This document shows, in pieces, positions 1 through 42,344 of a stretch of 64,000 nt of DNA (positions are counted from its first letter, which is position 1; each line of letters opens with the position of its first letter). The notes beneath the pieces were generated by a model. It was given only the letters and a program-made list of their open reading frames with translations. It did not search any database and was not told the origin of the DNA. Source of the DNA: Acidovorax soli. Its GTDB lineage: Bacteria > Pseudomonadota > Gammaproteobacteria > Burkholderiales > Burkholderiaceae_C. Made by a program: the position numbers and the translations under genes. The stretch is taken from contig NZ_FNQJ01000021.1 of the NCBI RefSeq assembly GCF_900107605.1, positions 1-64,000 on the forward strand, read 5' to 3'.

Positions 1-89
1 CATCGCCATCACACCCGAGTCGTCATAATCTGGTCGTCCTGCCTGGGGGAATTTGGGGTGGCCAAGGGTGGGGGAATTTGACCTGGCCA
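1..89. mobile_element. Probable terminus of an IS21-family insertion sequence
   Basis: Two copies of the 20-base motif GGGGGAATTTGNNNTGGCCA lie at 45-64 and 70-89 as direct repeats with start points 25 bases apart. IS21-family elements are known to carry repeated transposase-binding motifs of this kind just inside their ends. The trbL reading frame begins abruptly right after the second copy, which fits an insertion or deletion junction near base 89-97. A short frame ending in TAA near base 28 could be the tail of an istB-like gene, but too little is present to say. The family assignment is from memory of the motif layout. Confidence 0.5.
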
Positions 90-102
90 TCGGGGGCTTT
101 TC

Positions 103-918
103 GTGACGTTGATCGAGTTCAAGCTGACCACGCTCGCGGGCTTCGTGCTGGTGCCGTTCGCGCTGTGGAACAAGACGGCCTTCCTGGCCGAGAAGGTATT
201 GGGCAATGTGGTGTCCTCGGGCATCAAGGTGCTGGTGCTGGCGGTCATCGTGGGGATTGGAACGGGGCTTTTTTCGGAGTTCAACATTCCCGCAGGGGCC
301 GAGCCCTCCATTGACCAGGCGCTGGTCATCATGCTGGCCTCGCTCTCCATGCTTGCCCTGGGCATCTTTGGGCCTGGCATCGCCACTGGGCTGGTATCTG
401 GTGGGCCGCAGCTTGGTGCGGGAGCCATGGCTGGAGCAACGCTGGGCGCGGCAGGCGCCGCCCTTGGCGTTGGCGCCGCTGCTGCCGGCACCGCTGGCGC
501 GGTGGCTGCCGGCGCACGCATGGCTCCCGGCGCGGCGCGGCTTGCAGCCAGCGGTGCGCGTGGTGCCAAGGCTGCTTTCGCTGAAGGCTCCACCGCCGCG
601 GGGGGTGGCATCAAAGGCGCCGCCGCGGGGGTGGGCAGCGTGGCCAAAGTCGGCGCGCAGGCTGCAGGTCAGAAGCTGGCGGATGGAGCGCGCTCGATGA
701 AGGGGCGCATGGCCTCGGCATTCCGACCTGATGAGGCATCGGTGTCCAGCGCGGGCGCCGCAGATTCGCCCGCAGCGGCTGAACAGCCCGCCTGGGCCAA
801 GCGCCTGCATCGCAGACAGCAGCTTACCCACGCCGCAACGACCACCGCCCACGCGCTGCGCGGTGGCGATGGTGGCAGCTCCAGCCAGGGGCCAAGCCTG
901 CGTGATTCCGATTCATAA
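103..918 (+). pseudogene. trbL: TrbL, 5'-truncated conjugative transfer membrane protein
   Basis: This is the C-terminal 271 or so residues of TrbL, the polytopic inner-membrane (VirB6-like) component of the conjugative type IV secretion channel; full-length TrbL is usually 440 residues or more. Hydrophobic segments cover roughly residues 10-25, 38-58 and 72-95. They are followed by a long Ala/Gly-rich region and a polar tail, which is typical of TrbL. Homology begins a few codons before the GTG at 103, and an in-frame stop lies at 79-81, so the N-terminal membrane part is missing. The break coincides with the IS21-like repeats at 45-89. An AAGGAG ribosome site for trbF follows the stop codon. 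Loss of function is inferred. Confidence 0.85.
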
Positions 919-929
919 GGAGAACTCCC

Positions 930-1634
930 ATGCGATTCAAACGACCGCAGGTGCGCTATGCCGACACACCGCAGCCTGCCACACCGTACCAATCCGCTGC
1001 CCAGGTCTGGGACGAGCGCATTGGCTCGGCCCGCGTTCAGGCGAAGAACTGGCGCTTTATGGCCTTTGGGTGTCTCACCTTGGCCGTGCTGATGGCGGGC
1101 GGGCTGGTGTGGCGCTCGGCGCAGTCCATCGTCACGCCCTACGTCATCGAGGTGGACAACGCGGGCCAGGTGCGCGCCGTGGGCGAAGCCGCCACGCCGT
1201 ACCGGCCCAGCGATGCCCAGGTGGCCTATCACCTGGGCCGCTTCATCGGCCTGGTGCGCTCGCTGTCCATCGACCCGGTGGTGGTGCGGCAGAACTGGCT
1301 GGATGCCTATGACTACACGACCGACAAGGGCGCGGTGGTGCTCAACGAGTACGCCCGCGTGAACGATCCGTTCGCGCGCATCGGCAAGGAGTCGGTGACG
1401 GTGCAGATCAGCAGCGTGACCCGCGCCAGCGAGCAGTCCTTCAACGTGCGCTGGACGGAGACGCGCTTTGTGAACGGTGCGCTGGACCGCACCGAGCGCT
1501 GGAACGCGGTGATCTCGACAGTGCTGCAAACCCCGCGCACCGAGCAACGCGTGCGCAAGAACCCCCTGGGCATTTACGTCAACGGCTTGTCGTGGAGCCG
1601 TGAACTGGAAGCGAATGAAGGAGCAAAGCCATGA
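930..1634 (+). CDS. trbF: TrbF, VirB8-like conjugative transfer protein
   Basis: A 234-residue protein of the VirB8/TrbF family, a bitopic inner-membrane protein of the mating-pair formation complex. One membrane segment lies at about residues 43-62 after a short cytoplasmic N-terminus. The remainder is the periplasmic VirB8-like domain, including the late conserved NPLGIYV stretch near residue 215. The start has a clear AAGGAG site 7-8 bases upstream. The stop overlaps the trbG start by four bases (ATGA), so the two are probably translationally coupled. Size and sequence are those of Tn4371-family TrbF. Confidence 0.95.
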   Translation: MRFKRPQVRYADTPQPATPYQSAAQVWDERIGSARVQAKNWRFMAFGCLTLAVLMAGGLVWRSAQSIVTPYVIEVDNAGQVRAVGEAATPYRPSDAQVAYHLGRFIGLVRSLSIDPVVVRQNWLDAYDYTTDKGAVVLNEYARVNDPFARIGKESVTVQISSVTRASEQSFNVRWTETRFVNGALDRTERWNAVISTVLQTPRTEQRVRKNPLGIYVNGLSWSRELEANEGAKP

Positions 1635-2620
1635 ATGACCTTTTCCGTAAATCCACTGTGCTGTTGATGTTCGCCGCTTTGGCGGGCTGCGCCAGCCAGG
1701 GCAAGCCGCCGCCGACTATCTCGCTCGATGAGCCGGTGCAGGCCCAGCCGCTGCCCGAGCCGCCAGCGCCGGTGGAGGTGGTTGCCATGCCCGAGGTGCT
1801 GCCGATGCCGGCGCAGTTGAAGCCAGCATCTCAGGCAGAAGACGTCAAGCCCGCGCCGGAGCCGGCCGACGAGAAGGTGCGCGTGTCGCGAGCGAACACC
1901 GAGGCCCGCGTCGCGCCCACGCGAGAGGGCTACGTCAATGCGATTCAGGTCTGGCCTTTCACGGATGGCGCGCTCTATCAGGTCTATGCGGCCGTGGGCC
2001 GCGTGACTGTGATCGCGTTGCAGCCGGGCGAGGAGTTGGTGACAGTGGCGGCCGGCGACACGGTGCGCTGGATCGTCGGGGACACATCGAGTGGCAGCGG
2101 CGATGCGCTGCGGGTCAATGTGATGGTGAAGCCGATCCGCTCGGGATTGAAGACAAACCTGGTCATCACCACCAGCCGCAGGACGTACCTGCTGGAGTTG
2201 ACCTCGACCGAGAAGACATGGATGGCATCGGTGTCCTGGGAGTATCCGAAGGACAAAATGCTGGCCTTGCAGCGCCAGGCGCAGGCGGCTAGCGCAGCCG
2301 CGCCGGTCGATGCCGGGCTGTCGCTGGAGAAGCTGCGTTTCCGCTACGCGGTCAGCGGCAGCAATCCGCCGTGGAAGCCGCTGCGCGCCTTCGATGACGG
2401 CGAGAAGGTCTATATCCAGTTCCCGCCGGGCATCGCCCAGGGCGAGCTGCCGCCGCTGTTCGTCATCGGCGCGCAGGGCGACGGGCAACTGGTGAACTAC
2501 CGTTTCCGTGCCCCGTACTACATCGTGGATCGTCTGTTCGGCGCCGCCGAGCTGCGCCTCGGCGGTGACAAGGGTGACGTGGTACGGATCGAGCGCACAG
2601 ACGGCACGCGGAGGAACTGA
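1631..2620 (+). CDS. trbG: TrbG, VirB9-like outer-membrane channel lipoprotein
   Basis: A 329-residue TrbG/VirB9 family protein, a component of the outer-membrane core of the conjugative type IV secretion system. The first 20 residues form a lipoprotein signal with a LAGC lipobox (lipidated Cys20). A Pro/Glu-rich linker spans about residues 25-80, and the VirB9 beta-rich domain follows. It overlaps trbF by four bases and ends two bases before trbI, so it is part of one translational unit. TrbG is expected to pair with TrbI (VirB10-like) across the periplasm. Confidence 0.95.
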   Translation: MNDLFRKSTVLLMFAALAGCASQGKPPPTISLDEPVQAQPLPEPPAPVEVVAMPEVLPMPAQLKPASQAEDVKPAPEPADEKVRVSRANTEARVAPTREGYVNAIQVWPFTDGALYQVYAAVGRVTVIALQPGEELVTVAAGDTVRWIVGDTSSGSGDALRVNVMVKPIRSGLKTNLVITTSRRTYLLELTSTEKTWMASVSWEYPKDKMLALQRQAQAASAAAPVDAGLSLEKLRFRYAVSGSNPPWKPLRAFDDGEKVYIQFPPGIAQGELPPLFVIGAQGDGQLVNYRFRAPYYIVDRLFGAAELRLGGDKGDVVRIERTDGTRRN

Positions 2621-2622
2621 CC

Positions 2623-3894
2623 ATGAGCCAGGACGACACTCCCGACCTTGCCACGCCACAGGTGGGGAAGGTGGCGCCCGAGGCGGTGGCGCTGCGCGCC
2701 CAGCCGCGCCCGGTCACGCGCCTGAATCGGCGCACGCTGGCCATCCTCGTCGGTGGCCTGTCGGTCGCCGTGCTCGGGGCCACGATCTGGTCATTGCAGC
2801 CGCATCGACGTGGCGCGGGCGAGCAGACCGAGCTTTACAACGTCGATCGCATCTCGAAGTCCGAAGGGCTGGACGGCCTGCCGGCCGACTACTCCAAGCT
2901 GCCGAAGGTGCCGGAGCTGGGGCCGCCGCTGCCGGGCGATCTCGGCCCGGCCATCGTGAATTCGCAGCAGCCGGCCGTGGCCGCATACGCAGCCCCCGGC
3001 CACGATCCGAACGACGCCCTGCGCAAGGAGGCAGAGGCTGCGGCGGCTTCGTCGGTGTTCTTCCGCTCGGGTCGCCCAGGTCAAGCCGCCGCCACGGTGG
3101 CGCAGGCGGCGCCAGGGGCGCCTGGTGCTGCAAGCACGCTTGCTGCCTTCGATCCGCTCGCCGCCGGGCCGGCCTCGACGGCGGCGCCGCGCGCTGACCC
3201 GGCCACCACGCAGAACGGGCAGGATCAGAAAGAGGCATTCCTGAAATCCGGTTCCACAGAAACCCGCAATTCCGGCGACCTGAAGACGCCGGCGTCGCCG
3301 TATCAGGTCATGGCCGGTACGGTGATCGCGGGAGCGCTGGTGACGGGCATCAAGTCGGACTTGCCGGGCGACGTGATCGCCACGGTGACGGAGCCGGTCT
3401 ATGACACGGCCACGGGCAAGTTCCTGCTGATTCCGCAGGGATCGCGCATCCTCGGACGCTACAACAGCCAGGTCAGCTACGGGCAGAGCCGTGTGCAAGT
3501 GGTGTGGAACCGGGTCATCCTGCCCGACACGTCATCGCTGACGCTCGACAACCTTGTCGGCACCGATCCGGCCGGCTATGCGGGCCTGGAGGACGACGTG
3601 GACTGGCACTGGGGCCGCGTCTTCGCGGGCGCGGCGCTGACCACGCTGCTGGGCATCGGCGCCGAGTTGGCCGCGCCGGAGAACCGCCAGGACGGTAACC
3701 GCATCGTCATTGCTGGGCGCGACAGCGCCCAGGACAGCATCAACCAAGTCGGGCAGGAGATGACCCGGCGCAACATGAACATCCAGCCGACGCTGACGGT
3801 GCGTCCGGGACTACCGATGCGGCTGGTCGTGGCCCGCGATTTGGTATTGCGTCCCTACCAGCCGATGTTCTATCAACTCGGGAGAACTCGATGA
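2623..3894 (+). CDS. trbI: TrbI, VirB10-like conjugative transfer protein
   Basis: A 423-residue TrbI/VirB10 family protein that spans from the inner membrane to the outer-membrane core. A single membrane segment lies at about residues 37-57. A long Ala/Pro-rich periplasmic region runs to about residue 220. The conserved VirB10 domain starts at the YQVMAGTVI motif and includes IPQGSRILGRY and the region normally carrying the antenna helix. Its stop overlaps the DUF2274 start by four bases. Length and domain order match intact family members. Confidence 0.95.
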   Translation: MSQDDTPDLATPQVGKVAPEAVALRAQPRPVTRLNRRTLAILVGGLSVAVLGATIWSLQPHRRGAGEQTELYNVDRISKSEGLDGLPADYSKLPKVPELGPPLPGDLGPAIVNSQQPAVAAYAAPGHDPNDALRKEAEAAAASSVFFRSGRPGQAAATVAQAAPGAPGAASTLAAFDPLAAGPASTAAPRADPATTQNGQDQKEAFLKSGSTETRNSGDLKTPASPYQVMAGTVIAGALVTGIKSDLPGDVIATVTEPVYDTATGKFLLIPQGSRILGRYNSQVSYGQSRVQVVWNRVILPDTSSLTLDNLVGTDPAGYAGLEDDVDWHWGRVFAGAALTTLLGIGAELAAPENRQDGNRIVIAGRDSAQDSINQVGQEMTRRNMNIQPTLTVRPGLPMRLVVARDLVLRPYQPMFYQLGRTR

Positions 3895-4136
3895 ACACGA
3901 CGAAGAAACTCCGCCTGGGGCCGCTTCCCCGCTTGGATTCCACGAAGATGACCTTCACATGTCCAGCCCGCTTGAAAACGGATCTCGATCGCTATGCAGC
4001 GCAGCACGCGCAGACCTATGGCGAAGCGGTTGATGCGGCGACGTTGATCCCGCACATGCTCGATGCCTTCATGGCTGGGGATCGTGGATTCAGGAAAGGA
4101 ACGACGGTCAAGGCTGTCCCACCGAAACAGCCCTGA
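3891..4136 (+). CDS. DUF2274 family protein, last gene of the trb block
   Basis: An 81-residue protein of the DUF2274 family, routinely found as the last gene after trbI in Tn4371-type and related ICEs. It contains the family core with CPARLKTDLDRYA and a Ser/Thr-rich N-terminus, and no membrane segment. It overlaps trbI by four bases (ATGA). Its biochemical role is unknown. Its constant position suggests a function in transfer or its control, but this is inference. Confidence 0.85.
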   Translation: MNTTKKLRLGPLPRLDSTKMTFTCPARLKTDLDRYAAQHAQTYGEAVDAATLIPHMLDAFMAGDRGFRKGTTVKAVPPKQP

Positions 4137-4158
4137 TGGCCCGGCCATCGCACCACGC

Positions 4159-4188
4159 CGAAAGCGCAGCCCATGGGCTGCGCTTTCG
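4159..4188. terminator. Perfect 30-bp palindrome after the trb operon
   Basis: The arms CGAAAGCGCAGCCCA and TGGGCTGCGCTTTCG are exact reverse complements with no spacer, 22 bases after the DUF2274 stop. The position suggests a transcription terminator for the trb operon, but no run of T follows. A protein-binding palindrome or an RNA stability element is equally possible. Confidence 0.5.
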
Positions 4189-4389
4189 CTTATGGACGAG
4201 GATGGCGACAAGCTGGCGCTACGATCTTGCCTGCTGCGATGCCCCCGCGTTTGCTACCGCGAAGCGCCCATGTGGCACCTAGCTTAAAAGGTGGCAAGAG
4301 CCCGCAGTGGCCAGAATCTGGTCTAACCTATTGCCCCATATGACCTTTTGCTTCGCTGCAAGTCTGCATCAAAGGCTTGACAACGGACA

Positions 4390-4397
4390 TTTTTCAT
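4390..4397. other. Probable attR of the Tn4371-family ICE (TTTTTCAT)
   Basis: The octamer TTTTTCAT matches the 8-bp attachment sequence known for Tn4371-family elements. It lies 254 bases after the last ICE gene, exactly where a new open frame with a different character (the 3' part of a host gene) begins. The partner attL would lie left of the window. An eight-base match has little weight alone, but position and family context make it convincing. Confidence 0.75.
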
Positions 4398-4827
4398 GGC
4401 CGCATTGGGCCAGGTGCTCAGTCCCCTCGCTGCCCTGACCGGGCGCTTTGAATCGGCATTGCTGGATGCGGCTCAACAACAACAAACCCACGACGAAGCG
4501 CAGATGGAGTCGGACTACCTGGGGCTGAAGCCCACCGAGCAGGCCGTGCTGTGGCGCATGCTGACGCAAGGTTCACGATACCGCCCTTACGATGCCGAAG
4601 CACTGCGCTTTTACCGGGAAAGAACTGGCCACCCAGTAAACGCTACCCAAGTTCAGCGGGCGCTGGAGGGTTTGCGACAGCGTATGCCCGCGTTGGTATG
4701 GAAGTCGGCCCGCGGTGAATACGCGCTAGAAGACGTGGCCATGCACCGCTGGTTTGAAAAGCGCGGCGGCGCAGGAAAGTGGCCACCCACACCGCCACAG
4801 GGCGTGCTGCCCCTTGATGATGATTGA
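4396..4827 (+). pseudogene. 3' remnant of the gene split by the ICE (probable ATP-binding protein C-terminus)
   Basis: An open frame of 143 codons whose first ATG is made by the attachment site (TTTTTCATGG); an in-frame stop lies at 4378-4380 inside the ICE. The sequence around LKPTEQAVLWRM and the Tyr/Arg-rich part after it look like the winged-helix C-terminus of an ATP-binding protein common in accessory regions of Burkholderiales, from memory of similar proteins. The N-terminal ATPase part would be at the other ICE end, outside the window. No good ribosome site precedes the ATG, so it is probably not expressed as a functional protein. Confidence 0.6.
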
Positions 4828-5451
4828 ATACAGGGCAGAAGGGAACAGCCCTCTTGTCCCATCGACCAGTTGCTGATCACATGCATAAAGTTACCGGGCA
4901 GTCAGCTTCTGATCGGACGCGCTCAATGGGCATTGACAAAGAGCCATCAGCTCCGCTAGATTAGCGCGAGCTAGCTTTATGGCCTGCTGGTGTGAGCCCG
5001 CCGCACCAAAAATACTTGCGGGCCCCTGAACAAGCTGGGCCCGATCCCAGCAAAAGGCCCCTAGGCCGGATATTTCTGCCTGCGCAGATATAAATTTCGT
5101 GGGCTTTTGCTCGCGATGGCTTTTTTGCCAAAAGTCTCTTTGAGGTCGTCCTGTACCTCAGTGGAGGGCGTTCGACTGAACGATCTCCGATGTCCGGAAA
5201 TTAGGCCAGCAAAGCCAAGCCCCAAAAGTTGCCCTGATTAGGGGCTATCAATGCGGCGCGCTCACGCGCGCCCCTTCAATGCTGCCCGCCTGACGCGTAC
5301 CACGTTCGGGCCGGCGCAGCCACATCACGAGCGGCGTCACGCCGCCCCCCTTGATGCCCGACACCTCGGCTGGCGCCGATCGAGGTGCATCCGCGCGCGC
5401 CTACATGGCCCTTCCCCCCTTTCTCGGCCCGGCTTTTTCTATGGAGTTGCT
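4828..5451. other. Leader region upstream of the large recombinase operon
   Basis: These 624 bases hold no convincing gene. The plus frame of the next gene stays open back to an ATG at 5251, but codons before 5452 are Arg/His/Pro-rich and look non-coding. A GC-rich hairpin lies at 5255-5272 (GGCGCGC, four-base loop, GCGCGCC). An imperfect inverted repeat lies at about 5069-5095 around TCTGCCTGCGCAGA. Either could belong to operon regulation or to a recombination site. Confidence 0.4.
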
Positions 5452-7482
5452 ATGACTATTCCGGCGTCCTTCGTTTTCGCTCACACCTCCGTTGCCGTGG
5501 AGGGGCCTGATGCTGCGCGACTGCTTTTGAGCATCATTCCGGCGCCACCGCATCAACCGGGCATCGGCTTAGTCGCTAAAAATACCTTGACCTGCCTGAC
5601 GGCACTGCTGATCGAAGTTCCCGCTGCCGGATCTCATCTCGCGCAACATATCTCGTTGCTTGGCAAGTTGAGCGACGATTCAGGCGCCTGCATTGCTCAG
5701 CCCAATGCAATGCTCGGCCTCGCGAGCGATTACCCAGCCTGGGCGTGGTTCGTATCTGCGAGCTTTCCTTACGCGCATCGACTCCAGAGCTTGGTCGGCA
5801 AGCATTTAGTCGCGGCCCTCCTGAAAGAAGCCTCCATAGAAAAGAGCTTCGTTCAAAAACTGCGCAAGCTCATCAAACAATCACACGACGAGATCCTGAC
5901 AAACCAGCAGTTCGAAGCGGAGGTCACCAAGCTTGAAGGGCAAGCACATCAAAAGCTCCTGCAGTTGCTGGCGTTGCACTCCTGCTCCACGAACAGCGCG
6001 CAACTGTCATTTAACGCAGCGGTGACCTCCTGCCTTTCCAATCGACTGAGCTCCCTACGTCAAACCGAGCGCCAGGCCGTAGATACCGGCCAAACACTCA
6101 GCCGCAGCGAGCTCACACGCACCGTCGTCCTTCTTCTCGACCAAGCACAGCAGGGTCACTCTGATGACCTGGTCACCCTCATCTGCCTATGCGTTGGCCT
6201 CGGCCTAAACCTCGGCAAGCGAATACCACTGGTTTCCGGAGAAAGCGGACAAGGCTGGATGGCCTGGATCGATCCGGTTGCAGGCTCAACATACGTGGAC
6301 TTGTCATTCGCACTGGCAGGTCTTGGTAAACGTTCAAGCCCGCGGCATCAAGCGTCCACGCTGATCCTGAAGCGCCCACTGCCGCAGGGTGTTGCCACCA
6401 TGCTGCGAGAGGCCCACACGCAAAACAGCCAGTTGCGCACGCTCGCCGATCTGTGCATTAACAAACCAACCAGCCGCAAAAAAATCTCGTTGCCGGGGGT
6501 TCATCACAGCGCTTCGTTGGCCGGACTGATGAACTCCGCGCGATCGATTTCATTAGCGACCACCGACAGGCGTGATATCTCTGCCTACGCGACTCTTGCC
6601 CTTGAACTGGTAAACAAATCCGATCTCCATTACGTCTGCCCACGCGAGCGCGAGATCTGGCAGGCCTGCTCCGACTTCTATGACGCCGTCGGCCTGGGGC
6701 CAGCAGTACCGCAAAGTGGTGGCAACTCCAACCTCCGCATCGGCTCCCGCCTGACACCATCGGCGGATTGGATCAAAGAAGTATTTGCAAGCGCTGGCGA
6801 TGAACTGCTCGCGAAAAAGTGTGGTCGCAGGTACTCGTTGCCATCATTGATCGAGCACCACAACGCGTGCGCGCGTTACGTCGGCCTCTTGATGCAGTTT
6901 GTCGTCGGAGGCCGCGACCGCCGCCTTATCGACTTTCGTGCGAGCGTTTGGAGCGGCACCACGACCTTCGGCTTGATGGAAGACAAGCCCTTGAGTGCCA
7001 CGCGAGGCACGACACCGATCCCCATCCCAGCAGCGCTCTCCGAGCAGCTCAAGCTTTGGCACGCGCACATCGCCGCGCTGGATAAGCGGCTATTGAAATT
7101 GCAAGCCCCCGGCTCTTCGGCCGCCTTTCAACTCATCCGCCAGATCAGGGAACTCCAGAACTTGCCCATGCTTTTTTTGCTGGACACGCATGGCGCCCCC
7201 GTCCCCTTGAGCTCAGATGTCCTTTTCACAGGCCCAGCCAGCCAGCTCAACCGGGACTTTGGTCGCCATTCTCTGCCGGATCTTTTGCTGGATGCGGGCA
7301 TGCCATTCGAGGATATCCAAGACTGGCTCCGCCATTTCTCGCCGGGAATCTCAACGCACGAACTGAATTCCAACCGCGTCAAGTACCACAGCACCGAACG
7401 CCTTATTTCAGGCATCGACCAAGTGCTACTGGAGCTGAACATCCGACCCAGGTCCGGCCTGAGCAAGGAAATCGCTCCATGA
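5452..7482 (+). CDS. Large degenerate tyrosine-recombinase-like protein, first gene of a three-gene operon
   Basis: A 676-residue protein starting at an ATG with GGAG about six bases upstream; longer upstream starts were rejected because the added codons look non-coding. Most of the protein has no recognisable motif. The last 150 residues resemble a decayed tyrosine recombinase catalytic domain: an Arg-rich GGRDRR segment, then FGRHSLPDLLLDAG, DWLRHFSPG and a Tyr soon after, replacing the usual HxLRH, GH and Tyr series. It overlaps the next gene by four bases. I infer a DNA-binding or architectural partner for the catalytic recombinase encoded next. Similar pairing is known in Tn554 (TnpA/TnpB) and in multi-recombinase islands, but close identity is not claimed. 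Confidence 0.6.
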   Translation: MTIPASFVFAHTSVAVEGPDAARLLLSIIPAPPHQPGIGLVAKNTLTCLTALLIEVPAAGSHLAQHISLLGKLSDDSGACIAQPNAMLGLASDYPAWAWFVSASFPYAHRLQSLVGKHLVAALLKEASIEKSFVQKLRKLIKQSHDEILTNQQFEAEVTKLEGQAHQKLLQLLALHSCSTNSAQLSFNAAVTSCLSNRLSSLRQTERQAVDTGQTLSRSELTRTVVLLLDQAQQGHSDDLVTLICLCVGLGLNLGKRIPLVSGESGQGWMAWIDPVAGSTYVDLSFALAGLGKRSSPRHQASTLILKRPLPQGVATMLREAHTQNSQLRTLADLCINKPTSRKKISLPGVHHSASLAGLMNSARSISLATTDRRDISAYATLALELVNKSDLHYVCPREREIWQACSDFYDAVGLGPAVPQSGGNSNLRIGSRLTPSADWIKEVFASAGDELLAKKCGRRYSLPSLIEHHNACARYVGLLMQFVVGGRDRRLIDFRASVWSGTTTFGLMEDKPLSATRGTTPIPIPAALSEQLKLWHAHIAALDKRLLKLQAPGSSAAFQLIRQIRELQNLPMLFLLDTHGAPVPLSSDVLFTGPASQLNRDFGRHSLPDLLLDAGMPFEDIQDWLRHFSPGISTHELNSNRVKYHSTERLISGIDQVLLELNIRPRSGLSKEIAP

Positions 7483-10205
7483 CATCTCTGTCACAACCCT
7501 GGACAACAACAAAACGAAATCCAGTCCTGATTCCGGCCTTCAGCGCTCCCGGCGGGGTCGCTCGCTTCGACAGCTTTATTCGATCGGCCGACCGGCTGGT
7601 GACCCAACTCGCGCCTTCGCATGCCCTGATCTTGTGCGCCATCCTCTACGAAGGCATGGGCTCATCCGCAGAGCTATCGAACTTCCTTCATGCCTTGGTG
7701 TCATCGCACTCCACCTGTGACGGCCACTACGTCCAATGGTCCGATGAACAGGACCGTCTGCATAGCCGGGCGCTCGATCCACGCACGCGCATCGCATTGT
7801 TCCGAGTCCCCAGTGGAACGTTGCCCAAGAAGGACCTGGACTCCTTCCATCAAGTATTGCTGAAGAACTACCCAATGGCCCAATCCCAGATGGGCAAGGA
7901 CCTCTGGCATCTCATCTTCCACGACGCGCTGGCCTGGCTACATCAGCACATCCCCAATTTTTGTCTGGGGATGCTCACGGGCAGTATTCCCATCACGGCA
8001 CTGCCCCGCGATGTGCTTACGCGATGGAACCTACGACAAAAGGACGTGCACTGGGAAACGCGGGATGCTGCAGATGATGATGCTCTCAGTCCCTCCCACG
8101 ACGGAGCATTGGAAATACTCCTTGAGATGGAGGCGCCCATCAACCGCCGCGCTCGGTGCCTGAAGGAGATTCAAGACCTGTTTACTCTACCCAACCAGGC
8201 AACAGACATCCGGCTTTCTGATCAGCGTTGGCGAACAAGCCTGTACAGCAGGTTGGCCATGACCGCCGACTTGATTGCACGCCAAGGCACAGAAGGCGAT
8301 GCGCTGGTCCTGCTGTGGGTGCACCACCTGCTTAGCGTTGGCAGCGTGCGCCTGAAGAATCCTTCCGTCGCAACAATCTCTCGCTACGTCAGCGCTACCG
8401 CGGGGCTCATCTCCGAAAACTACACTCAATGCCCGTGCTCTGCAGTTCACATGGACGATGAACAGTGGATCGCCTTCTTCGATGCACTGAAGCATGCCGT
8501 TAACAGCGACCCACAACGCCCGGCCCTTGCCTCCTTCCATCAGTTTTGCATCCAGACATTTGGCGCCCCGCCGATGGCGCAGGTACTTTTTTCGGGTGAC
8601 GGAAACACCACGGTAGTGCACGCCAACACGGTCTGGTCCCAAGAAATCCACGGGGCCCTGGAACTTGCCCTCACTGCCAGCAGCGATGCACGCATCTGCG
8701 CCAGTGTGCAAGCGCTGCTGGCTCTTGCCGCTATTTTTCCCCTGCGCATCGGCGAGGCACAAGCCCTACGCCTAGAGGACTTCGTCATCACTGAAGAAGG
8801 CATCGAACTCCGATACCACCCTCGGCGAGGGCAGCATCAAGGTAAAAGCTACAGCGCGAAGCGATGGATGCGCAGCTTCGGCGAGCCGGCGTGGGTGGCG
8901 TGCGTAGCCAGCTGGATCAAGCGCAGGAAGAGTGAAGAAGAGGGCAGACATGGCAAGTCTGCTCTGCTGTTTGGAGATCCCCACAGCAGCCATCGCACCT
9001 ACATGTTTGCCGCCTGCAGCCGACTGGTCAACCGCGCTCTTAAGCAAGTCTGCGGCGACAAATCAGTTTCCTTCCATACGCTGCGGCACGCATGGGTCAA
9101 CCGCAACATCATCCATCAGCTGGATCAGCCTTCTTCTCGTCCAAGCCCCGTTTCCTGGTTGCAAAAAGTTGCCGCTGAGGTGGGACATGCCCAAGTTCCG
9201 ACAACCCTGCAGCACTATTTCCACCGACCCGACATGGCCTTGCGCTGCTCTCTGAACAGCTATTGGCAGACGAGGCCACTTACCGCTGAAGTCGCAGCCT
9301 TCTGGACCGGACGTTCCGCTGCCGCATTGCGAAAGGCTAAACAACGCAGTGAGAACAAAGCGGAATTCTTGTGGTCTTGTCTCTTCGAGACATCCACTGG
9401 GCTGGCTGTACGCCAAGCGCCGCCCCCATCTCTGCTGGCGGCGTTGCCGCCGCCACCAATAGCGTCAATCGGCCTGATGCATGTACGCAAGATCCTCTGC
9501 GATCTTCACACTGGCATACCAGTCGAGGCTGTGGCTTCTCGCTGCAGTGTCCCTTTGGCCACCGTCTTGGAAGTGATCGATCGTGCTGTATTGATCGCCA
9601 ACCAGCTTCTTGTCTTGGGAAGTGTCCGTGGTCGCCGCCTGATCCTCGAACATGCCACGCGGGTGATCAAACTTGCACGGCTACTTCAGATCTTTATGGA
9701 TTGCGATATTCGGCCGACGGTCACCGATGAACCTTCCTGGCAAAAGTTGGCACCTCAAAACATTGCTCCTACGTTTGCACAGCGCAATGCCGTGCGCTCA
9801 TGGATGCACTGCCGCGATGGGCAAAGCATTGCATTGCGACCCGATGGATCGGCCGACGACCTTTTGCGTTGGCTGAGCGACGGCTCCGTTCCTGGCAGCT
9901 GCATTGTCCTTCGAGTTCCAATGAAGCATGTTGCTGATCCTCATTCTCGCGCTACGACTGTGCGCAGTGATTCAGCCAGAAGTGCGCAAGATCAGCTAGG
10001 ACAGTACTTCGGAACCTCCGTCACGATTGAAGGGGTTCGCCAACGGAAACTCGAACAACCTCCCTACATGCTGATCTCAAGAAAGCCTTTCACCAAAACA
10101 TCCAAGCCTTGCCCTTCCGCCAGATTGCGCATGGGATCTTTTCATGGCCTTATGTTTTCCATGGCCGTATGGCACGGCATGATTGGAATGGATGCGCATG
10201 AGTAA
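7479..10205 (+). CDS. Very large tyrosine recombinase, second gene of the operon
   Basis: A 908-residue protein with an intact tyrosine recombinase catalytic domain at about residues 420-590. It shows the first Arg in FPLRIGEAQAL, the HTLRHAW box (His-x-x-Arg), a later GHAQ box and the nucleophile candidate in LQHYFH about ten residues on. Ordinary integrases are 300-450 residues, so about 400 N-terminal and 300 C-terminal residues are extra; the tail includes a helix-turn-helix-like stretch (CSVPLATVLEVIDRAV) near residue 690. It overlaps both neighbours by a few bases, so the three proteins are probably made together. It is likely the catalytic engine of a mobile element; the exact family is not recognised. 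Confidence 0.75.
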   Translation: MTSLSQPWTTTKRNPVLIPAFSAPGGVARFDSFIRSADRLVTQLAPSHALILCAILYEGMGSSAELSNFLHALVSSHSTCDGHYVQWSDEQDRLHSRALDPRTRIALFRVPSGTLPKKDLDSFHQVLLKNYPMAQSQMGKDLWHLIFHDALAWLHQHIPNFCLGMLTGSIPITALPRDVLTRWNLRQKDVHWETRDAADDDALSPSHDGALEILLEMEAPINRRARCLKEIQDLFTLPNQATDIRLSDQRWRTSLYSRLAMTADLIARQGTEGDALVLLWVHHLLSVGSVRLKNPSVATISRYVSATAGLISENYTQCPCSAVHMDDEQWIAFFDALKHAVNSDPQRPALASFHQFCIQTFGAPPMAQVLFSGDGNTTVVHANTVWSQEIHGALELALTASSDARICASVQALLALAAIFPLRIGEAQALRLEDFVITEEGIELRYHPRRGQHQGKSYSAKRWMRSFGEPAWVACVASWIKRRKSEEEGRHGKSALLFGDPHSSHRTYMFAACSRLVNRALKQVCGDKSVSFHTLRHAWVNRNIIHQLDQPSSRPSPVSWLQKVAAEVGHAQVPTTLQHYFHRPDMALRCSLNSYWQTRPLTAEVAAFWTGRSAAALRKAKQRSENKAEFLWSCLFETSTGLAVRQAPPPSLLAALPPPPIASIGLMHVRKILCDLHTGIPVEAVASRCSVPLATVLEVIDRAVLIANQLLVLGSVRGRRLILEHATRVIKLARLLQIFMDCDIRPTVTDEPSWQKLAPQNIAPTFAQRNAVRSWMHCRDGQSIALRPDGSADDLLRWLSDGSVPGSCIVLRVPMKHVADPHSRATTVRSDSARSAQDQLGQYFGTSVTIEGVRQRKLEQPPYMLISRKPFTKTSKPCPSARLRMGSFHGLMFSMAVWHGMIGMDAHE

Positions 10206-10974
10206 GGACCAAGAAATATTTCGGGTGTTCATCAACTCGGTGCAAAAGGCCAGAGATCCCGCCAAGGAGCAGCGGGAGATCATGCTCGTGCAGAACACGA
10301 TGAACACGGTCTTGGGGCAGCTGTCTGAACAGGACCGCCTGTACTACTCTCTGGAGGTAGACCCGGGCAAACTTGACCAGTGGTTAGTGGTTTCCTGCTG
10401 TGACAGTCTTCAGCGCAGGCTCTTTGAGGACAGAAAAGCGCCTTACTCAGCATCCTCCACCGAGGATCCGCTTCTCGCTGGAACAGTCATGCAAGCGACT
10501 AACGCATTGAAGCACCTGAGAACATTGTCTACCTCGACGGGCTTGAGCCCTGATGACTTCATCGATGCCATACGCACCACTGCGCCAGCATTGATCCGCC
10601 TGCTTACGGACCGGGAAGAAACCACGAGCTTCCGGACCAGCGATGGCGTGACTATCTCTGTGGATCCAATCTACCAATCGCGAAGAACAATGCTTCCCGA
10701 CCCCGTCTCCGTTCGCTTTCGTGTAGACATGGTAGGTCGCGAGAAAGCTGTTATTGAGCCGACCAAGGAACATCGATCGCAACTGAAGACCAAGAGCAAG
10801 CAGATCCAGCTTCACTGGCTTCCGCTGGAGCATCCATTTCTGTATGAAATTCTCCTGGAATCCATGGAGTCACGAGCACTCGTTGAGGTTGACGCATGCC
10901 GCTATGTCAATCGGATAGGCCAAACCGTTAATTTGTCTTTTCTTAGGATGATTGAATCGCCCGATGACTGTTGA
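10198..10974 (+). CDS. Third protein of the recombinase operon, unknown function
   Basis: A 258-residue protein whose ATG overlaps the stop of the preceding gene (ATGAGTAA). An alternative ATG lies 15 bases earlier. It is rich in charged residues with a predicted helical N-terminus, and has no membrane segment or recognised catalytic motif. By position it may be an accessory factor, as the small third protein TnpC is for Tn554 recombinases, but it is twice that size and I see no clear similarity. No obvious terminator follows. Confidence 0.55.
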   Translation: MSKDQEIFRVFINSVQKARDPAKEQREIMLVQNTMNTVLGQLSEQDRLYYSLEVDPGKLDQWLVVSCCDSLQRRLFEDRKAPYSASSTEDPLLAGTVMQATNALKHLRTLSTSTGLSPDDFIDAIRTTAPALIRLLTDREETTSFRTSDGVTISVDPIYQSRRTMLPDPVSVRFRVDMVGREKAVIEPTKEHRSQLKTKSKQIQLHWLPLEHPFLYEILLESMESRALVEVDACRYVNRIGQTVNLSFLRMIESPDDC

Positions 10975-11021
10975 CATACATGAGGAGCGCTCGAATCTGT
11001 GCCTTTGCCTTCGGGTAATGT

Positions 11022-11363
11022 TTACGTTGGGGTGGCAGGGGCATCCACCGTCATTGCGGGTACGCGGAGTTCGATGCGGATGGCGCGCGGCGTGACCTCG
11101 CCTTGCTCCAACCGCTCGGCCAGAACGCGCAACGCTACGGCCTGGGCCTTCGCCATGGCATCTTCAGCCGTGGCTCCCAAGGCACGTGCTCCCGGCAGCT
11201 CCGGGACAACCTCGGCCAGAAACCGTCCGTCGTTGTCACGCATGCACTCCAACGTGTAGTTGGCGGCGCAGGGGCCAGAAGGTTGCGTTTGGCTCGTGGC
11301 CACATATATGCCGAACCAGGTAATCACGCCGCCGATAAGGCATAGGGTAATTAAGCCCACCAT
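11022..11363 (-). CDS. Membrane-anchored HicB-like protein
   Basis: A 113-residue protein. The ATG at 11363 is preceded by AAGGA about eight bases upstream; longer starts exist. Residues 1-24 form a hydrophobic membrane segment. The following part, RFLAEVVPELPGARALGATAEDA and the helix after it (about residues 47-90), looks like the HicB antitoxin fold, which has a characteristic AEVPELPG strand and turn. No hicA toxin gene is adjacent, and the C-terminal DNA-binding domain of HicB is missing. A signal-anchor joined to a HicB-like domain is unusual; its function is not known. Confidence 0.55.
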   Translation of the reverse strand: MVGLITLCLIGGVITWFGIYVATSQTQPSGPCAANYTLECMRDNDGRFLAEVVPELPGARALGATAEDAMAKAQAVALRVLAERLEQGEVTPRAIRIELRVPAMTVDAPATPT

Positions 11364-13760: not shown

Positions 13761-13882
13761 ATGAAACTCCTTGGCACTCGAAGTGCAGATTCGGCCAATC
13801 GGGCTTACAGGGTGGGCGCAGGCAAGGCTCCGCCCTGCCCTGCGCGTCGGGCACTTGGCGTAGGTTCAAAAAAGCGATGTGG

Positions 13883-15154
13883 TTAGGTAGTGGTTGCCAC
13901 TGCCGGTGAAGCCTCAAGCGCCAGGATCACGGGGGTCACGTTCCCCGTGACGGGCGCTAACGAGATGTGCTGCTTGAGCAAGCGCTCCATGGCAGAGCCG
14001 TCCCGGCGCGTCAGGTTGGGCACATACCGGCTGTAGACACGGAACAGCATTTCGGTGCTGGTGTGACCCAACTGTCGCGCAATCCATTCCGGCGCTTCCC
14101 CGGCAGCAAGCCACAGCGTTGCCGCCGTATGCCGCATCTGGTAGGCCCTGCGGTGCTCCAACCCCAGGTGACGTAGCAGCGGCGCCCAGACCCGGTTGAG
14201 GAAGTTCTGGTTATCAATGGGCTTGCCACTGCGCAAGCTGAATACATACTCCGAGTCAGGGTGCCGAGTCTTGAACTGCGCCTGCAGGGCATCGAACACC
14301 ATCTCGTTCATCTGGATGTCGCGCATGCTGCCATCCGTCTTGAGCTCGTCTTCCTCGTTGAGCACGATCGACTCACGCACCAGGATGAGCCGACGCTCGA
14401 AATCGATGTACTTCCATTTGAGACCATGCACCTCTCCGGTTCGCATTCCTGTGAAAAAGCGCACGGTGAAGTAGTTGCGATAGTCCGCCCTCGCGGTGGA
14501 CAGGATGCGCTGCACGTCCTCCAGCGTGAAGGGCATGACATCGCTGCGCTTCATCTTCAAGGGTTTGATATTGCGGAAGGCGGACGTAAACTCGAACCGG
14601 TCGGCCGCTTCGTTAAGGATCTGTCGCAAAGGCTTCATGATGGAGTTGATGCGTCGGTTGGATAGGGTGTTGCTGGACTTTCGGGCGGGAACTTTGGCGA
14701 GTGAAGCCCGAAATGCCAGTACGTCTGCCTTGGTGATCTGGCCGACCTCCTTGTCCCCGAAAAAGGGGATCAGGTATTTGTCCAGTGCACCGCGTTGCGT
14801 GATGCTGTAGCTGCGCCGCCATGTCACCTCGGCCTCTACGAACCACACCTCGGCGAAGTCGCTAAACAGCGGGGTTGTGCTGGGAGGCTGCTTCAACGCG
14901 CCTGGTGCAGGCCCGGCAAGCATGGGCTCCTGCGGGGGGTCTGTCTCCACGGCAGGCAAGGGTTTGCCGAAGGTTTTTTGGTAATCGAAGGCGCCCAGGG
15001 CGATTTCTCCTTCGATGCGCTCCAGCACCTTCAGTAAGCGCTTGCGGTTGGCTGAGGTGTCGGGCAACGTGGTGTATTCCCGCAGCCGCTGCCCCGCATA
15101 TCGGAAGTCCAGGAACAGCGTCCCTTTACTTTCCAGGCGGCGGATACTACCCAT
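13883..15154 (-). CDS. int: Tyrosine integrase with an N-terminal arm-binding (DUF3596-type) domain
   Basis: A 423-residue phage-type integrase. Residues 1-60 form an arm-type DNA-binding domain (SIRRLESKGTLFLDFRY). A core-binding domain lies at about 100-190. The catalytic domain follows with FFTGMRTGEVHGL (Arg), YQMRHTAATLW (box II), RQLGHTSTEM (GH) and RVYSRYV (nucleophile Tyr). Its start overlaps the excisionase-like gene by eight bases. It is the likely integrase of a genomic island or prophage remnant in this part of the window. Its attachment site is not identifiable from one boundary. Confidence 0.92.
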   Translation of the reverse strand: MGSIRRLESKGTLFLDFRYAGQRLREYTTLPDTSANRKRLLKVLERIEGEIALGAFDYQKTFGKPLPAVETDPPQEPMLAGPAPGALKQPPSTTPLFSDFAEVWFVEAEVTWRRSYSITQRGALDKYLIPFFGDKEVGQITKADVLAFRASLAKVPARKSSNTLSNRRINSIMKPLRQILNEAADRFEFTSAFRNIKPLKMKRSDVMPFTLEDVQRILSTARADYRNYFTVRFFTGMRTGEVHGLKWKYIDFERRLILVRESIVLNEEDELKTDGSMRDIQMNEMVFDALQAQFKTRHPDSEYVFSLRSGKPIDNQNFLNRVWAPLLRHLGLEHRRAYQMRHTAATLWLAAGEAPEWIARQLGHTSTEMLFRVYSRYVPNLTRRDGSAMERLLKQHISLAPVTGNVTPVILALEASPAVATTT

Positions 15155-15386
15155 GAATCACACCTCCATTGGCCAGCGGTATGCCCTCTGCACATACGGC
15201 CGAATACTGAGTCATGTCTGTTTCGATGTGCTCCCAGATATAGAGAGTTTTGCGTCCACCGAAAGGGCGGATGTAATGCCGACCCTCAAGTAGGACGCTG
15301 TCCTTGAGCCTGTCCCGGATGGTCCGTGCGTCGTACTTGATGCGGTCTGACAACTCGTCAGTGGTCAGATAGGTACACGATGTCAT
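15147..15386 (-). CDS. Excisionase-like small DNA-binding protein
   Basis: A 79-residue protein directly upstream of, and overlapping, the integrase. The N-terminal half (YLTTDELSDRIKYDARTIRDRL) is a winged-helix/MerR-like fold typical of excisionases and of small helix-turn-helix regulators that sit next to integrases. A GGAGAG site precedes the ATG. The role in excision directionality is inferred from size, fold and position. Confidence 0.7.
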   Translation of the reverse strand: MTSCTYLTTDELSDRIKYDARTIRDRLKDSVLLEGRHYIRPFGGRKTLYIWEHIETDMTQYSAVCAEGIPLANGGVIHG

Positions 15387-15522
15387 TTCTCTCTCCTTGC
15401 AATGGTGGACAATCAGGATTCAAAAAAGTCACGCACTGCGTTTTTTTGTCATCCTGGATGGCATTATGAGCGCGAAATCGCCCTTGTCAATGACTTTTTG
15501 TCGTTCTGAGCGATATTTCTAC
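15387..15522. promoter_or_regulatory. Divergent control region between xis/int and the XRE regulator
   Basis: This 136-base gap separates the minus-strand xis-int pair from the plus-strand XRE gene and must hold both promoters. It is AT-rich compared with its surroundings. Related half-sites AAAAAAGTCAC, TTTTTTTGTCATCC and ATGACTTTTTGTCG recur in alternating orientation at about 15420-15505, a pattern expected for operators bound by the neighbouring repressor. Binding is inferred only. Confidence 0.45.
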
Positions 15523-15756
15523 ATGGAGAATGTCTTGATCAAGTGTCACCTGTCCAGGCTTATGGGAGAACGAAAGCTCAAGATCAGCGACCTTGCGCGG
15601 GACACTGGTCTCCATAGGAACACCATCACGCTGCTCTACCAGGAGACGGCTACACGAGTTGATCTGGATGCGATCAACACCTTGTGTGGCTACTTCAGCG
15701 TTCCGGTAGGTGAATTGTTCGAATACGTCCCAGACAGTACGTCGGACCAAGAATGA
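15523..15756 (+). CDS. XRE-family (Cro/CI-type) regulator
   Basis: A 77-residue single-domain helix-turn-helix protein (LKISDLARDTGLHRNTITLL forms the second and third helices) of the small Cro/CI group. The frame is open further upstream with alternative ATGs at 15397 and 15466, but the HTH domain begins right after the ATG at 15523. It diverges from the excisionase-integrase pair and lies 62 bases upstream of hsdM on the same strand. It could control island excision, the restriction locus, or both. Controller proteins of similar size are known for restriction systems, but this link is inference. Confidence 0.8.
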   Translation: MENVLIKCHLSRLMGERKLKISDLARDTGLHRNTITLLYQETATRVDLDAINTLCGYFSVPVGELFEYVPDSTSDQE

Positions 15757-15817
15757 CAACCCGTCCCCTGCGGCACAACACGAAGTTGCCTCAGAGATCT
15801 GCGTATAACCACCATCA

Positions 15818-17560
15818 ATGAACCAACAAACCCTCTCCGCCTTCATCTGGTCCGTGGCCGACCTGCTGCGCGGCGACTACAAGCAATCCGACTACGGCAA
15901 GGTCATCCTGCCCTTCACCGTGCTGCGCCGCCTCGACTGCGTGCTCGAATCGACCAAGCCCGCCGTGCTGACCGAGTTGGCGGCCAAGCAGGCACAGGAC
16001 GTCAACCCCGAACCCTTCCTGCTGCGCAAGGCGGGGCAGAGTTTCTACAACACCTCCACGCTCGACCTCAAAAAGCTGCTGGGCGACCCCGACCACATCG
16101 CGCAAAACCTGTTCAGCTACGTGCAGGCGTTCTCACCTGCCGTGCGCGACGTGTTCGAGCGCTTTGAATTCCACACCCAGGTCGAGCGGCTGGCCAAGGC
16201 CGGGCTGCTCTACCAGGTGGCAGAAAAGTTCACCCAGATCGACCTGCACCCCGAAGTGGTCAGCAACATGCAGATGGGGCTGGTGTTCGAGGAGCTGATC
16301 CGCAAGTTCGCTGAAATCAGCAACGAGACCGCCGGGGAGCACTTCACCCCGCGTGAGGTCATCCGGCTCATGGTCAACCTCATCTTCATTGAAGACGACG
16401 CCATCCTCAGCAAGCCCGGCGTGGTGCGCACCATTTACGACCCCACGGCGGGCACGGGCGGCATGCTCAGCGTCGCCGGCGAATACCTGGCCGAGCACAA
16501 CCCCCAGGCGCGCCTGACAGTGTTTGGCCAAGAACTCAACCCCGAGTCCTACGCCATCTGCAAGGCCGACATGCTGATCAAAGGCCAGGACGTGGCCAAC
16601 ATCGCCTTTGGCAACACCCTCAGCGACGACGGCCATGCGCACAAGCGGTTCGACTACATGCTCTCCAACCCCCCGTTTGGCGTGGAATGGAAGAAGGTCG
16701 AAAAAGAAGTGCGCAAGGAGCACGAGCAGCAGGGCTACAACGGCCGCTTTGGCCCCGGCCTGCCCCGCGTGAGCGATGGCTCCATGCTGTTTTTGCTGCA
16801 CCTGCTCAGCAAGATGCGCCCCGCGACCGAGGGTGGTAGCCGCTTCGGCATCGTGCTTAACGGCTCGCCGCTGTTCACCGGCGGCGCGGGCAGTGGCGAG
16901 AGCGAAATCCGCCGCTACGTGCTGGAGAACGATCTGTGTGAAGCCATCGTGGGTCTGCCCACCGACATGTTCTACAACACCGGCATCAGCACCTACGTCT
17001 GGATCATCAGCAACCGCAAGCCCGAGGCCCGCAAGGGCAAGGTGCAGCTGATCGACGCCAGCGGCATGTGGCAGAAGATGCGCAAGAGCCTCGGCTCCAA
17101 GCGCAAAGAACTCAGCGACGCCCACATCGAGCGCATCACCCGCCTGTTTGGCGACTTTGCCGAGGCCGAGCACGACGGCAAGCCCATCAGCCGCATCTTC
17201 GACAACGAAGCCTTCGGCTACCACGCCATCACCGTCGAGCGCCCGCTGCGCGATGAAGCGGGCAACGTGGTGCTGGGCCTCAAGGGCAAGCAAAAGGGCA
17301 AACCCCAGCCCGATGCCAGCCTGCGCGACACCGAGAACGTGCCCTACACCGAAGACGTGGCCGAGTATTTCAAGCGTGAGGTGCTGCCCCACGCCCCGGA
17401 CGCCTGGATCGACCCAGAAAAGACCAAGGTGGGCTACGAAATCCCGTTCAACCGGCACTTCTACGTCTTCAAGCCGCCGCGCCCTCTGGCGGAGATTGAT
17501 GCCGATCTCAAGCAAACAACCGACCGCATCCTGGACATGATCAAGGGGCTGTCGGCATGA
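15818..17560 (+). CDS. hsdM: Type I restriction-modification system, methyltransferase subunit HsdM
   Basis: A 580-residue HsdM, the N6-adenine methyltransferase subunit of a type I restriction-modification complex. The N-terminal HsdM helical domain (residues 5-130) precedes the catalytic domain with [10 protein letters not shown] at about 173, SAM-binding DPTAGTGG at 208-215 and catalytic NPPF at 284-287. Length is normal for the family. The stop overlaps the hsdS start by four bases, so M and S are coupled as expected for a complex with two M and one S. Codon use is strongly GC-biased like the chromosome. Confidence 0.96.
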
Positions 17561-38340: not shown

Positions 38341-38378
38341 AGCAGCGTTATGCACAGCACGCAGTTATGGACAGTTGG
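38341..38378 (+). repeat. RIT element left terminal inverted repeat
   Basis: The 38-base sequence matches the reverse complement of 41824-41861 with one mismatch. Inside it are two direct copies of an 11-mer, GTTATGCACAG at 38347-38357 and GTTATGGACAG at 38364-38374, start points 17 bases apart, which are likely recombinase binding sites. Confidence 0.9.
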
Positions 38379-38471: not shown

Positions 38472-38500
38472 ATGGTGATCTCACAACTGGAGATCACCAT
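38472..38500 (+). promoter_or_regulatory. Hairpin that covers the ritA ribosome-binding site
   Basis: ATGGTGATCTC (38472-38482) and GAGATCACCAT (38490-38500) are exact reverse complements around a seven-base loop. The right arm contains part of GGAG and the first bases of the ritA ATG at 38499. It could restrict translation of the operon; a recombinase operator site is another possibility. Confidence 0.5.
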
Positions 38501-41823: not shown

Positions 41824-41861
41824 CCAACTGTGCATAACTGCGTGCTGTGCATAACGCTGCT
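41824..41861 (-). repeat. RIT element right terminal inverted repeat
   Basis: This 38-base segment is the inverted partner of 38341-38378 with one mismatch. It contains two identical copies of CTGTGCATAAC at 41828-41838 and 41845-41855, matching the 17-base spacing of the paired sites at the left end. Confidence 0.9.
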
Positions 41862-42174: not shown

Positions 42175-42177
42175 TGG

Positions 42178-42250
42178 TGCGGCTGGCGGGGATCGAACCC
42201 ACGACCCTCGGCTTCGGAGGCCGATACTCTATCCACTGAGCTACAGCCGC
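42178..42250 (-). tRNA. tRNA-Arg (anticodon CCG)
   Basis: On the minus strand the sequence begins GCGGCTGTAGCTCAGTGGAT and folds as a standard cloverleaf: seven-base acceptor stem (GCGGCTG with CAGCCGC), D arm, anticodon loop CTCCGAA with CCG anticodon, and T arm containing GGTTCGATCC. A CCA follows in the genome at 42177-42175. The 3' end faces the accessory region on the left, the usual orientation when an island sits at a tRNA 3' end. Confidence 0.97.
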
Positions 42251-42304: not shown

Positions 42305-42344
42305 CTTCGGAGGCCAATACTCTATCCACTGAGCTACAGCCGCA
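42305..42344 (-). repeat. Duplicated 5' half of tRNA-Arg(CCG)
   Basis: These 40 bases repeat 42212-42251 with one mismatch (CCAAT for CCGAT). They cover the tRNA from its first base through the anticodon loop. The copy lies 93 bases to the right of the real gene, on the side of the tRNA 5' end, and lacks the 3' half. It looks like an integration or recombination scar. Confidence 0.9.

Follow-up and report, generated by a model that had tools for sequence, protein, structure and literature searches.

Does an operon of giant recombinase-like genes form a transposon of its own, or is it a part of the mobile DNA that carries it? The question is raised by three overlapping genes of Acidovorax soli (assembly GCF_900107605.1), here called A, B and C, which lie within contig NZ_FNQJ01000021.1, positions 1-64,000 (this whole stretch of 64,000 nucleotides is called the window, and its coordinates are used unless another contig is named). 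A preliminary description of the sequence had taken them for a candidate mobile system laid out like Tn554, with a catalytic tyrosine recombinase (YR), an inactive partner and an accessory protein. From our analysis, A/B looks like an unnamed and seemingly new accessory module of mobile DNA and not like a transposon in its own right, and it is frequently accompanied by an ordinary tyrosine integrase (Int), which is also encoded near the operon in the window.

Three Overlapping Genes and Their Active Sites

All three genes are read on the forward strand. A (5452-7482) encodes 676 amino acids (aa) of probable YR fold, in which the conserved nucleophilic Tyr is absent; the longest open reading frame (ORF) in its frame starts at 5251 and would give 743 aa. 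B (7479-10205) encodes a giant YR of 908 aa, complete in its catalytic residues, and C (10198-10974) a protein of 258 aa from its ATG or 263 aa from an upstream TTG. A and B overlap by 4 bases and B and C by 8, and the coordinates and sizes first reported were confirmed. PF00589 matches B with E 2.3e-4, weaker than the curated cut-off, and the integrase model phrog_1 matches it with E 8e-8. A and C found no credible match in scans of Pfam, NCBIfam, PADLOC and PHROG-type models, and Pfam assigns no domain to the N-terminal part of A or of B. The earlier impressions that the large N-terminal regions hold no recognizable domain, that C is of no assignable type and that the sizes and layout fit no named family were thus borne out among the families searched; Pfam, NCBIfam and PADLOC contain no family for A/B/C. 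No description of such an A/B pair was recognized in the literature searched, which covered subscription papers thinly and may have missed one.

The complete active site already ascribed to B proved to be conserved throughout its relatives. R423, K456, R536, H570, Y580 and H582 were invariant in 24 of 24 sequences, and H533 was kept in 20 of them. The B profile matched the solved structure of XerA in the PDB (E 8e-9), and in profile-profile comparison B was clearly related to Int (E 9e-9). Judged by sequence, B is a member of the tyrosine recombinase superfamily with an R-K-H-R-H-Y site. In A, R488, K512 and R605 were invariant in 23 of 23 sequences and H628 in all 22 that reach that position. 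Residue 639, called nucleophile-equivalent by profile alignment with the nucleophile of Int, was Tyr in only 4 of 22 (L027, L053, L054, and L060), Phe in another 4 and mixed in the remainder, with Asn in the window; the adjoining S640 was kept in 19 of 22. The preliminary description had called this domain decayed. The conserved Tyr is indeed missing, but decay alone does not describe A, because R/K/R/H are invariant and the Tyr alone is lost, which is not the pattern of random decay. Upstream of the catalytic part, Y394 (6631-6633) was invariant in 22 of 22 sequences although the usual nucleophile is not.

These residue counts leave out L002 and L003, which are near-identical to the window, L052, which duplicates L053 exactly, L055 for A (no A found), the B halves of L016 and L017, a separate 521-aa ORF of L025, the later-found L049 and L147, and the plasmid pairs. 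The A sequence of L060 was placed by position without a profile hit, and the A rows of L028, L046, and L059 are partial.

The fold of A was approached through profiles. A profile of 14 A proteins matched solved YRs over box II (4a8e, E 6e-5; XerD, E 0.014), among six matches up to E 5 of which two were non-recombinases (Enteropeptidase-1 and Homer). With profiles of 23-24 sequences, the Arg-I region of A matched B with E 1.9e-4 and box II of A matched Int with E 0.009; with six sequences each, the comparison of A and B gave nothing. Several points tell against a YR fold for A: the supporting profile matches are short, the two profile-profile matches carry probabilities of 48% and only 4.5%, respectively, Pfam gives no recombinase match for any of the 14 A members, and the AlphaFold model of A, made from the window and two 98-99% identical copies, had a pLDDT of 34 and was not used. 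On the sequence evidence, A likely has the tyrosine recombinase fold.

Distribution, Gene Order, and Fusions

Two near-identical copies of the operon (99%) were found in A. temperans DSM 7270 and in an Acidovorax metagenome-assembled genome. Relatives of B occurred in 8 of 299 genomes of the family, 5 of 369 of the class and 12 of 300 of the order, with the genome of A. soli included in each count; among the eight family carriers, G132 was weak and without A and was set aside, as was locus L019, a weak B match with no A. The genome searches scored the first few candidates per genome, so that copies can be missed and the counts are lower bounds. The A. soli genome itself holds a second A/B, in one frame of 1,381 aa (C78:105-4250) close to the contig start and ~15 kb from a second Int, which escaped the first genome searches and surfaced later.

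In the gene maps A lies upstream of B, mostly overlapping it. That A and B stay neighbors in the same order in divergent genomes, at 14-22% identity, shows that the operon is more than a chance arrangement. Moreover, A and B are fused in one open frame of ~1,770-1,940 residues at seven loci (L045, L047, L048, L049, L050, L051, and L058), and at L046 the second ORF begins with the catalytic part of A; L055 has a B without a recognized A. The third gene follows no such rule. Relatives of C could be aligned downstream of B in L012, L013, L014, and L015, and a profile made from the C proteins of five loci found no additional one. In L016 and L059 a different gene of 312-325 aa takes the place downstream of B, in L026, L054, and L056 a small gene stands directly upstream of A instead of C, and the small gene of L053 sits beyond a tRNA fragment. 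C is not general to the module.

Linkage to a Conventional Integrase

Int (13883-15154, reverse strand) is a conventional tyrosine integrase with PF12167 arm-binding, SAM-like, and PF00589 domains, and it lies 2.9 kb from C and convergent with the trio. An ORF of 79 aa (15147-15386, reverse strand) overlaps its start, and the DNA of this ORF is conserved in L012, L047, L053, and L056; from its size and place it is a candidate excisionase. Among 22 genomes chosen for carrying A/B, 21 had relatives of Int (E <= 1e-30), with 1-3 copies each; Int was on the A/B contig in 15 of the 22, at a distance of 0.1-69 kb, and on other draft contigs in 6. At most loci where they share a contig, the trio and Int are convergent, the exceptions being G233, G297, and G820.

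In the 300-genome order sample A/B was found in 12 genomes, Int (E <= 1e-100) in 16 and both in 11 (one-sided Fisher P 1.4e-15, with differing thresholds, nonindependent related genomes and the A. soli genome counted). The separate searches for A/B and Int were taken to cover the same 300 genomes, because the genome handles shown agree. The Int carriers without A/B comprise two with complete islands (G716 and G816), one with no A/B within 60 kb (G848) and two whose contigs end near Int (G849 and G903). At L026 (6117-6962) and L134 (in G716), the gene after Int encodes 281-331 aa; the one in L026 resembles YhaM/HD-domain nucleases.

Position at the Ends of tRNA Islands

We scanned 27 loci for tRNA 3' ends, which was followed by a genome match and a relaxed scan that added L049, giving 28 loci. 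Decapitated tRNA 3' halves were found near A/B in 10 of them (L013, L014, L017, L025, L026, L047, L049, L053, L056, and L058); the relaxed scans also gave six matches without an anticodon arm, which were regarded as chance. An intact tRNA partner in direct orientation was found for the fragments of G917 (tRNA-Pro, 39,027 bp), G002 (tRNA-fMet, 49,420 bp), and G233 (tRNA-Thr, 40,570 bp), and each of these islands encloses both A/B and Int, so that, as in a tRNA island, an intact tRNA and a displaced fragment bound an integrase. In G409 (tRNA-Arg) the intact partner, also in direct orientation, lies across two contigs, and the remaining six fragment loci showed no intact partner in the fetched stretches. 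The repeats begin at or near the anticodon loop, and the fragment of G233 has a 7-nt gap. The tRNAs concerned were varied, including Pro, fMet, Thr, Arg, and another tRNA with a CAT anticodon.

In the mapped cases A/B stands at the end with the displaced fragment, away from the intact tRNA. The gap between fragment and operon was 168-188 bp in 6 of the 10 loci and 0.85-4.4 kb in the other 4, and in 9 of 10 the operon is directed inward, away from the fragment; for G233, where the operon is reversed, the gap was measured to the end of C. In the islands of G716 (~21 kb) and G816 (~14 kb), Int lies ~1 kb inside an intact tRNA-fMet with an fMet fragment at the far end, and no A/B match was found in either. 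Int can thus occupy tRNA sites in the absence of A/B, barring a later loss of the module, and therefore tRNA integration is probably the task of Int.

Some other candidates for ends were discarded. Repeats at L013 and L014 at first resembled attachment (att) sites; that at L013 looks, on reading, like the end of an insertion sequence (IS), that at L014 is a short match of doubtful nature, and for truD as a common target of L014 and L018 no repeat was found. Empty sites for L013 and L014 were sought in relatives and none was usable.

The Probable Island of the Window and Its Counterpart in A. temperans

The window contains a tRNA-Arg(ccg) gene (42175-42250, reverse strand), probably the attachment gene of an island, whose CCA end faces the trio. 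An extra tRNA-Arg 5' half (nt 1-39, as far as the anticodon) lies at 42305-42343 on the same strand and is taken for the trace of an insertion at the anticodon loop; the corresponding 3' fragment was not found in the window. In DSM 7270 two tRNA-Arg copies (C4 345,781-345,856 and 448,421-448,496) bound an interval of ~102 kb, which holds a relative of the Int-restriction segment of the window (91% DNA identity over 13844-17639) as well as the operon (~C4 410,111-415,633). This interval may consist of several islands. G262 has an uninterrupted tRNA-Arg/Tyr/Gly/Thr cluster.

Other neighbors deserve mention. Positions 1-4389 of the window carry TrbL, VirB8, CagX, and TrbI family genes and end inside an ATPase gene; we take these trb-type genes to be Tn4371-like. 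On Acidovorax carolinensis pACP4.3 (L061, 5255-8246) the same ATPase family is followed by an overlapping gene for a 611-aa tyrosine recombinase, possibly another ATPase-recombinase pair. Adjoining tRNA-Arg, three recombinase genes at 38472-41759 (425, ~380, and 339 aa) are read as a RIT element; two of them match PF00589, the third is similar to both, and the set is flanked by a short inverted repeat (38341-38378 and 41824-41861).

Occurrence on Plasmids

With B and C of the window as queries no plasmid was matched, while B of L053 found 212 plasmid records, 208 of them from Acinetobacter, mostly over the catalytic part and at ~24% identity among the ten matches listed; the fused protein of L047 found one plasmid record. 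A relative of A precedes B in all three plasmid records that were opened. It is whole in pM131-2, 339 aa long in a Sphingobium plasmid and cut by the record start in an A. baumannii plasmid. The A protein of pM131-2 keeps Y394, R488, K512, R605, H628, and S640, and has His at 639. In two Acinetobacter plasmids of replicon cluster 639 (L175 and L177), A/B lies beside a gene for a DUF4011 protein, and in L175 also beside Fic/YhfG genes. Searches of phage records gave no match, nor did a pattern search of viral contigs, which covers close relatives only. With varied tRNAs and plasmids as its sites the module has no fixed position, and no full-length homology to a named family was found among those searched; either would have spoken against the initial proposal.

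Comparison with Known Systems

Among described elements, GInt (ginABCD) has an operon for several YR-type proteins at one end of the island, with diverse insertion sites, and, as with A/B/C, one of the YR-type proteins has an incomplete catalytic set and a small accessory protein is present, according to the part of its description that we consulted (PMC5385486). In that account GinC lacks the first Arg, whereas A misses the Tyr alone; the att repeats are 10-17 nt, whereas tRNA halves are found here; and the GInt Results, as far as consulted, mention no separate tRNA integrase, whereas Int accompanies A/B. Three integrase-like genes and a small HLH gene form the GInt layout, whereas we found two YR-type genes and one without a recombinase match, and the ~1,800-aa A/B fusions are a further difference. 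Strand-biased circularizing integrative elements (SE; intA, tfp, intB, srap) are, in the consulted parts of their descriptions, similar in having a large YR (IntB), a YR-fold protein without the nucleophile (Tfp) and an auxiliary protein in an operon at one end; however, Tfp lacks the RHRY set while A keeps R/K/R/H, and the ends of SE are imperfect inverted repeats of 13-19 bp (PMC10214605; PMC11064530). A/B/C were set apart from GInt and SE by these descriptions and not by protein sequence.

The gamma-mobile-trio, reportedly described by Mahata in 2024, likewise has three adjacent genes, for a YR, a 908-aa protein (GmtZ, named here by position) and a small protein. GmtY has 441 aa against 676 for A, and the models of GmtX (NF040692) and GmtY (NF040693), both present in the library, matched none of the three proteins at E values up to 1. 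B against GmtZ gave a pairwise E of 0.36 and the B profile scored below zero bits on GmtZ. A large B profile gave GmtY 8.1 bits, which we read as general YR similarity because two of three RIT recombinases scored higher (19.8 and 16.8 bits). A gamma-mobile-trio of 441/908/200 aa, in which GmtY was identified by its model and its two partners by position, occurs in G409 (L065), a genome that also has an A/B island.

RIT elements also consist of three adjacent recombinase genes, as far as their description was consulted (PMC8138268). They are three related catalytic YRs of ordinary size (339-425 aa in the RIT-type set of the window, against 676/908/258 here), whereas A lacks the Tyr and C matches no recombinase model. 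At E 0.01, blastp matched no member of the RIT-type set of the window to either A or B, and the A and B profiles scored this set weakly, as YRs of a general kind. Conventional tRNA islands identified by Islander share the integrase, the intact tRNA with a displaced fragment and the anticodon-centered crossover, and conventional tyrosine integrases are the known tRNA-targeting class; the consulted part of that work makes no mention of an extra giant module like A/B beside the displaced fragment (PMC4383910).

Weighing the Explanations

On balance, and with some reserve, we favor an undescribed two-subunit YR machine that is an accessory of mobile DNA and acts beside att sites or on circular forms. 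Several observations weigh against this explanation or the linkage behind it. A, B, and a third gene occur in G731 without Int, 5 of the 16 Int carriers in the order sample show no A/B, and no relative of Int was found near the plasmid A/B pairs in the fetched stretches of three records. The trio and Int have the same direction in G820 and G297, one Int of G917 lies outside its tRNA fragment, and the operon of G233 is reversed. The scan found no tRNA fragment near A in the window, and none lies by the operon in L002 (DSM 7270) or L003; left of A is the end of the ATPase gene, joined at ~4389 to the trb-type genes, and ~33 kb separate the operon of DSM 7270 from the closer of the two tRNA-Arg copies. 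A pure att role is thus weakened by the plasmid copies, by G731 and by the window island, whose left end was not located.

Some of these points would suit an autonomous YR transposon like Tn554 or RIT, inserting by its own ends, which we nevertheless consider unlikely. G731 and the Acinetobacter plasmids carry the pair without Int, and in the 22.7 kb fetched from DSM 7270 the sole block in common with the window is one of 6,290 bp that holds the operon at 99.2% identity. This block was dropped as an element: its left break in L002 falls at CTAG, next to a transposase-like ORF (by reading, without an IS search), and so need not be an element end, and it starts inside an ATPase gene that is whole in L003. 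Furthermore, no ungapped direct or inverted repeat scoring at least 9 joins 4301-5460 with 10961-11080. Given that Int is present in 11 of 12 carriers of the order sample and that tRNA fragments lie near 10 of 28 loci, a self-mobile trio like Tn554 is not supported, and the trio is probably no free-standing transposon. What stands of the preliminary description is a giant catalytic YR, encoded on mobile DNA together with a third gene and a partner that mostly lacks the nucleophile; the Tn554-like unit gained no support, for the trio is linked to Int, and the flank comparison that was to reveal conserved ends around the three genes found none there and displaced tRNA fragments instead.

It is also conceivable, though doubtful, that A/B/C is the true integration and excision machine of the islands, with Int as a helper. 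The gap of 168-188 bp that separates operon and tRNA fragment at 6 of the 10 loci resembles that of a recombinase beside its own att site, and the operons of GInt and SE, in the accounts consulted, are likewise at one element end; yet the islands of G716 and G816 have Int and no A/B match, and the class known to target tRNAs is that of the conventional tyrosine integrases. A role of A/B as defense or competition cargo, for example by cutting rival elements at the same tRNA, seems decidedly improbable. Type I restriction genes are near in the window, Fic and DUF4011 proteins are near on plasmids, and the module occurs on islands and plasmids alike, but the best PADLOC match of the trio is C with E 0.027, and the repeated place near an island end and the invariant, complete YR site of B are unlike cargo. 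Least credible of all, and very improbable, is a highly diverged GInt, SE, or gamma-mobile-trio. The division of labor among catalytic YRs, a noncatalytic YR-type protein (GinC or Tfp), and a small accessory is similar as far as those accounts go, and the 908 aa of GmtZ and the 8.1 bits of GmtY might be taken in its favor; the missing model matches up to E 1, the E of 0.36 against GmtZ, the higher scores of two RIT recombinases, and the R/K/R/H of A, which GinC and Tfp do not keep in full, argue against it.

A Proposed Two-Subunit Recombinase Module of Mobile DNA

The two-subunit machine that we favor builds on the observed gene order, fusions, residue conservation, linkage to Int, and place in the tRNA islands of relatives, from which we infer the reaction, its timing, and the role of C. 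B would cut and join DNA, and A would be a YR-like subunit with the phosphate-binding residues retained and, in most relatives, no cutting Tyr. Because of the fusions and the gene order, A and B would work as one unit, presumably a heterodimer. Int, a separate and ordinary integrase, would insert the islands into tRNA genes at the anticodon loop while A/B rides along; the pair rides on plasmids as well, with no Int nearby in the stretches fetched. Since A/B in the mapped cases stands beside the att site at the island end, it would adjoin attP in the excised circle, with Int on the other side of the attachment site. The target of A/B would then most likely lie within the att arm or at another place on the circle, and the candidate roles of the pair are strand-limited recombination, suggested by the Tyr missing in A, multimer resolution, or control of excision, and not tRNA integration. 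More tentatively, it could represent a new class of two-subunit recombinase, one subunit of which has lost the nucleophile and retained the phosphate-binding pocket, and in which (A-B)2 cuts one strand per duplex and performs a single strand exchange, leaving the Holliday junction to replication or host enzymes; we hold this to be possible and no more than that.

If this were true, (A-B)2 would be a one-way, copy-out-capable recombination engine common to tRNA islands and plasmids. SE and GInt also include a YR-type protein without catalytic residues, whose role is unexplained. Here the dead partner retains its pocket apart from the Tyr, and several lineages have it joined to the active enzyme in one protein, so that the question of what a dead recombinase does becomes testable on one polypeptide. 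A recurring module is thereby added to tRNA islands and to the plasmids of Acinetobacter.

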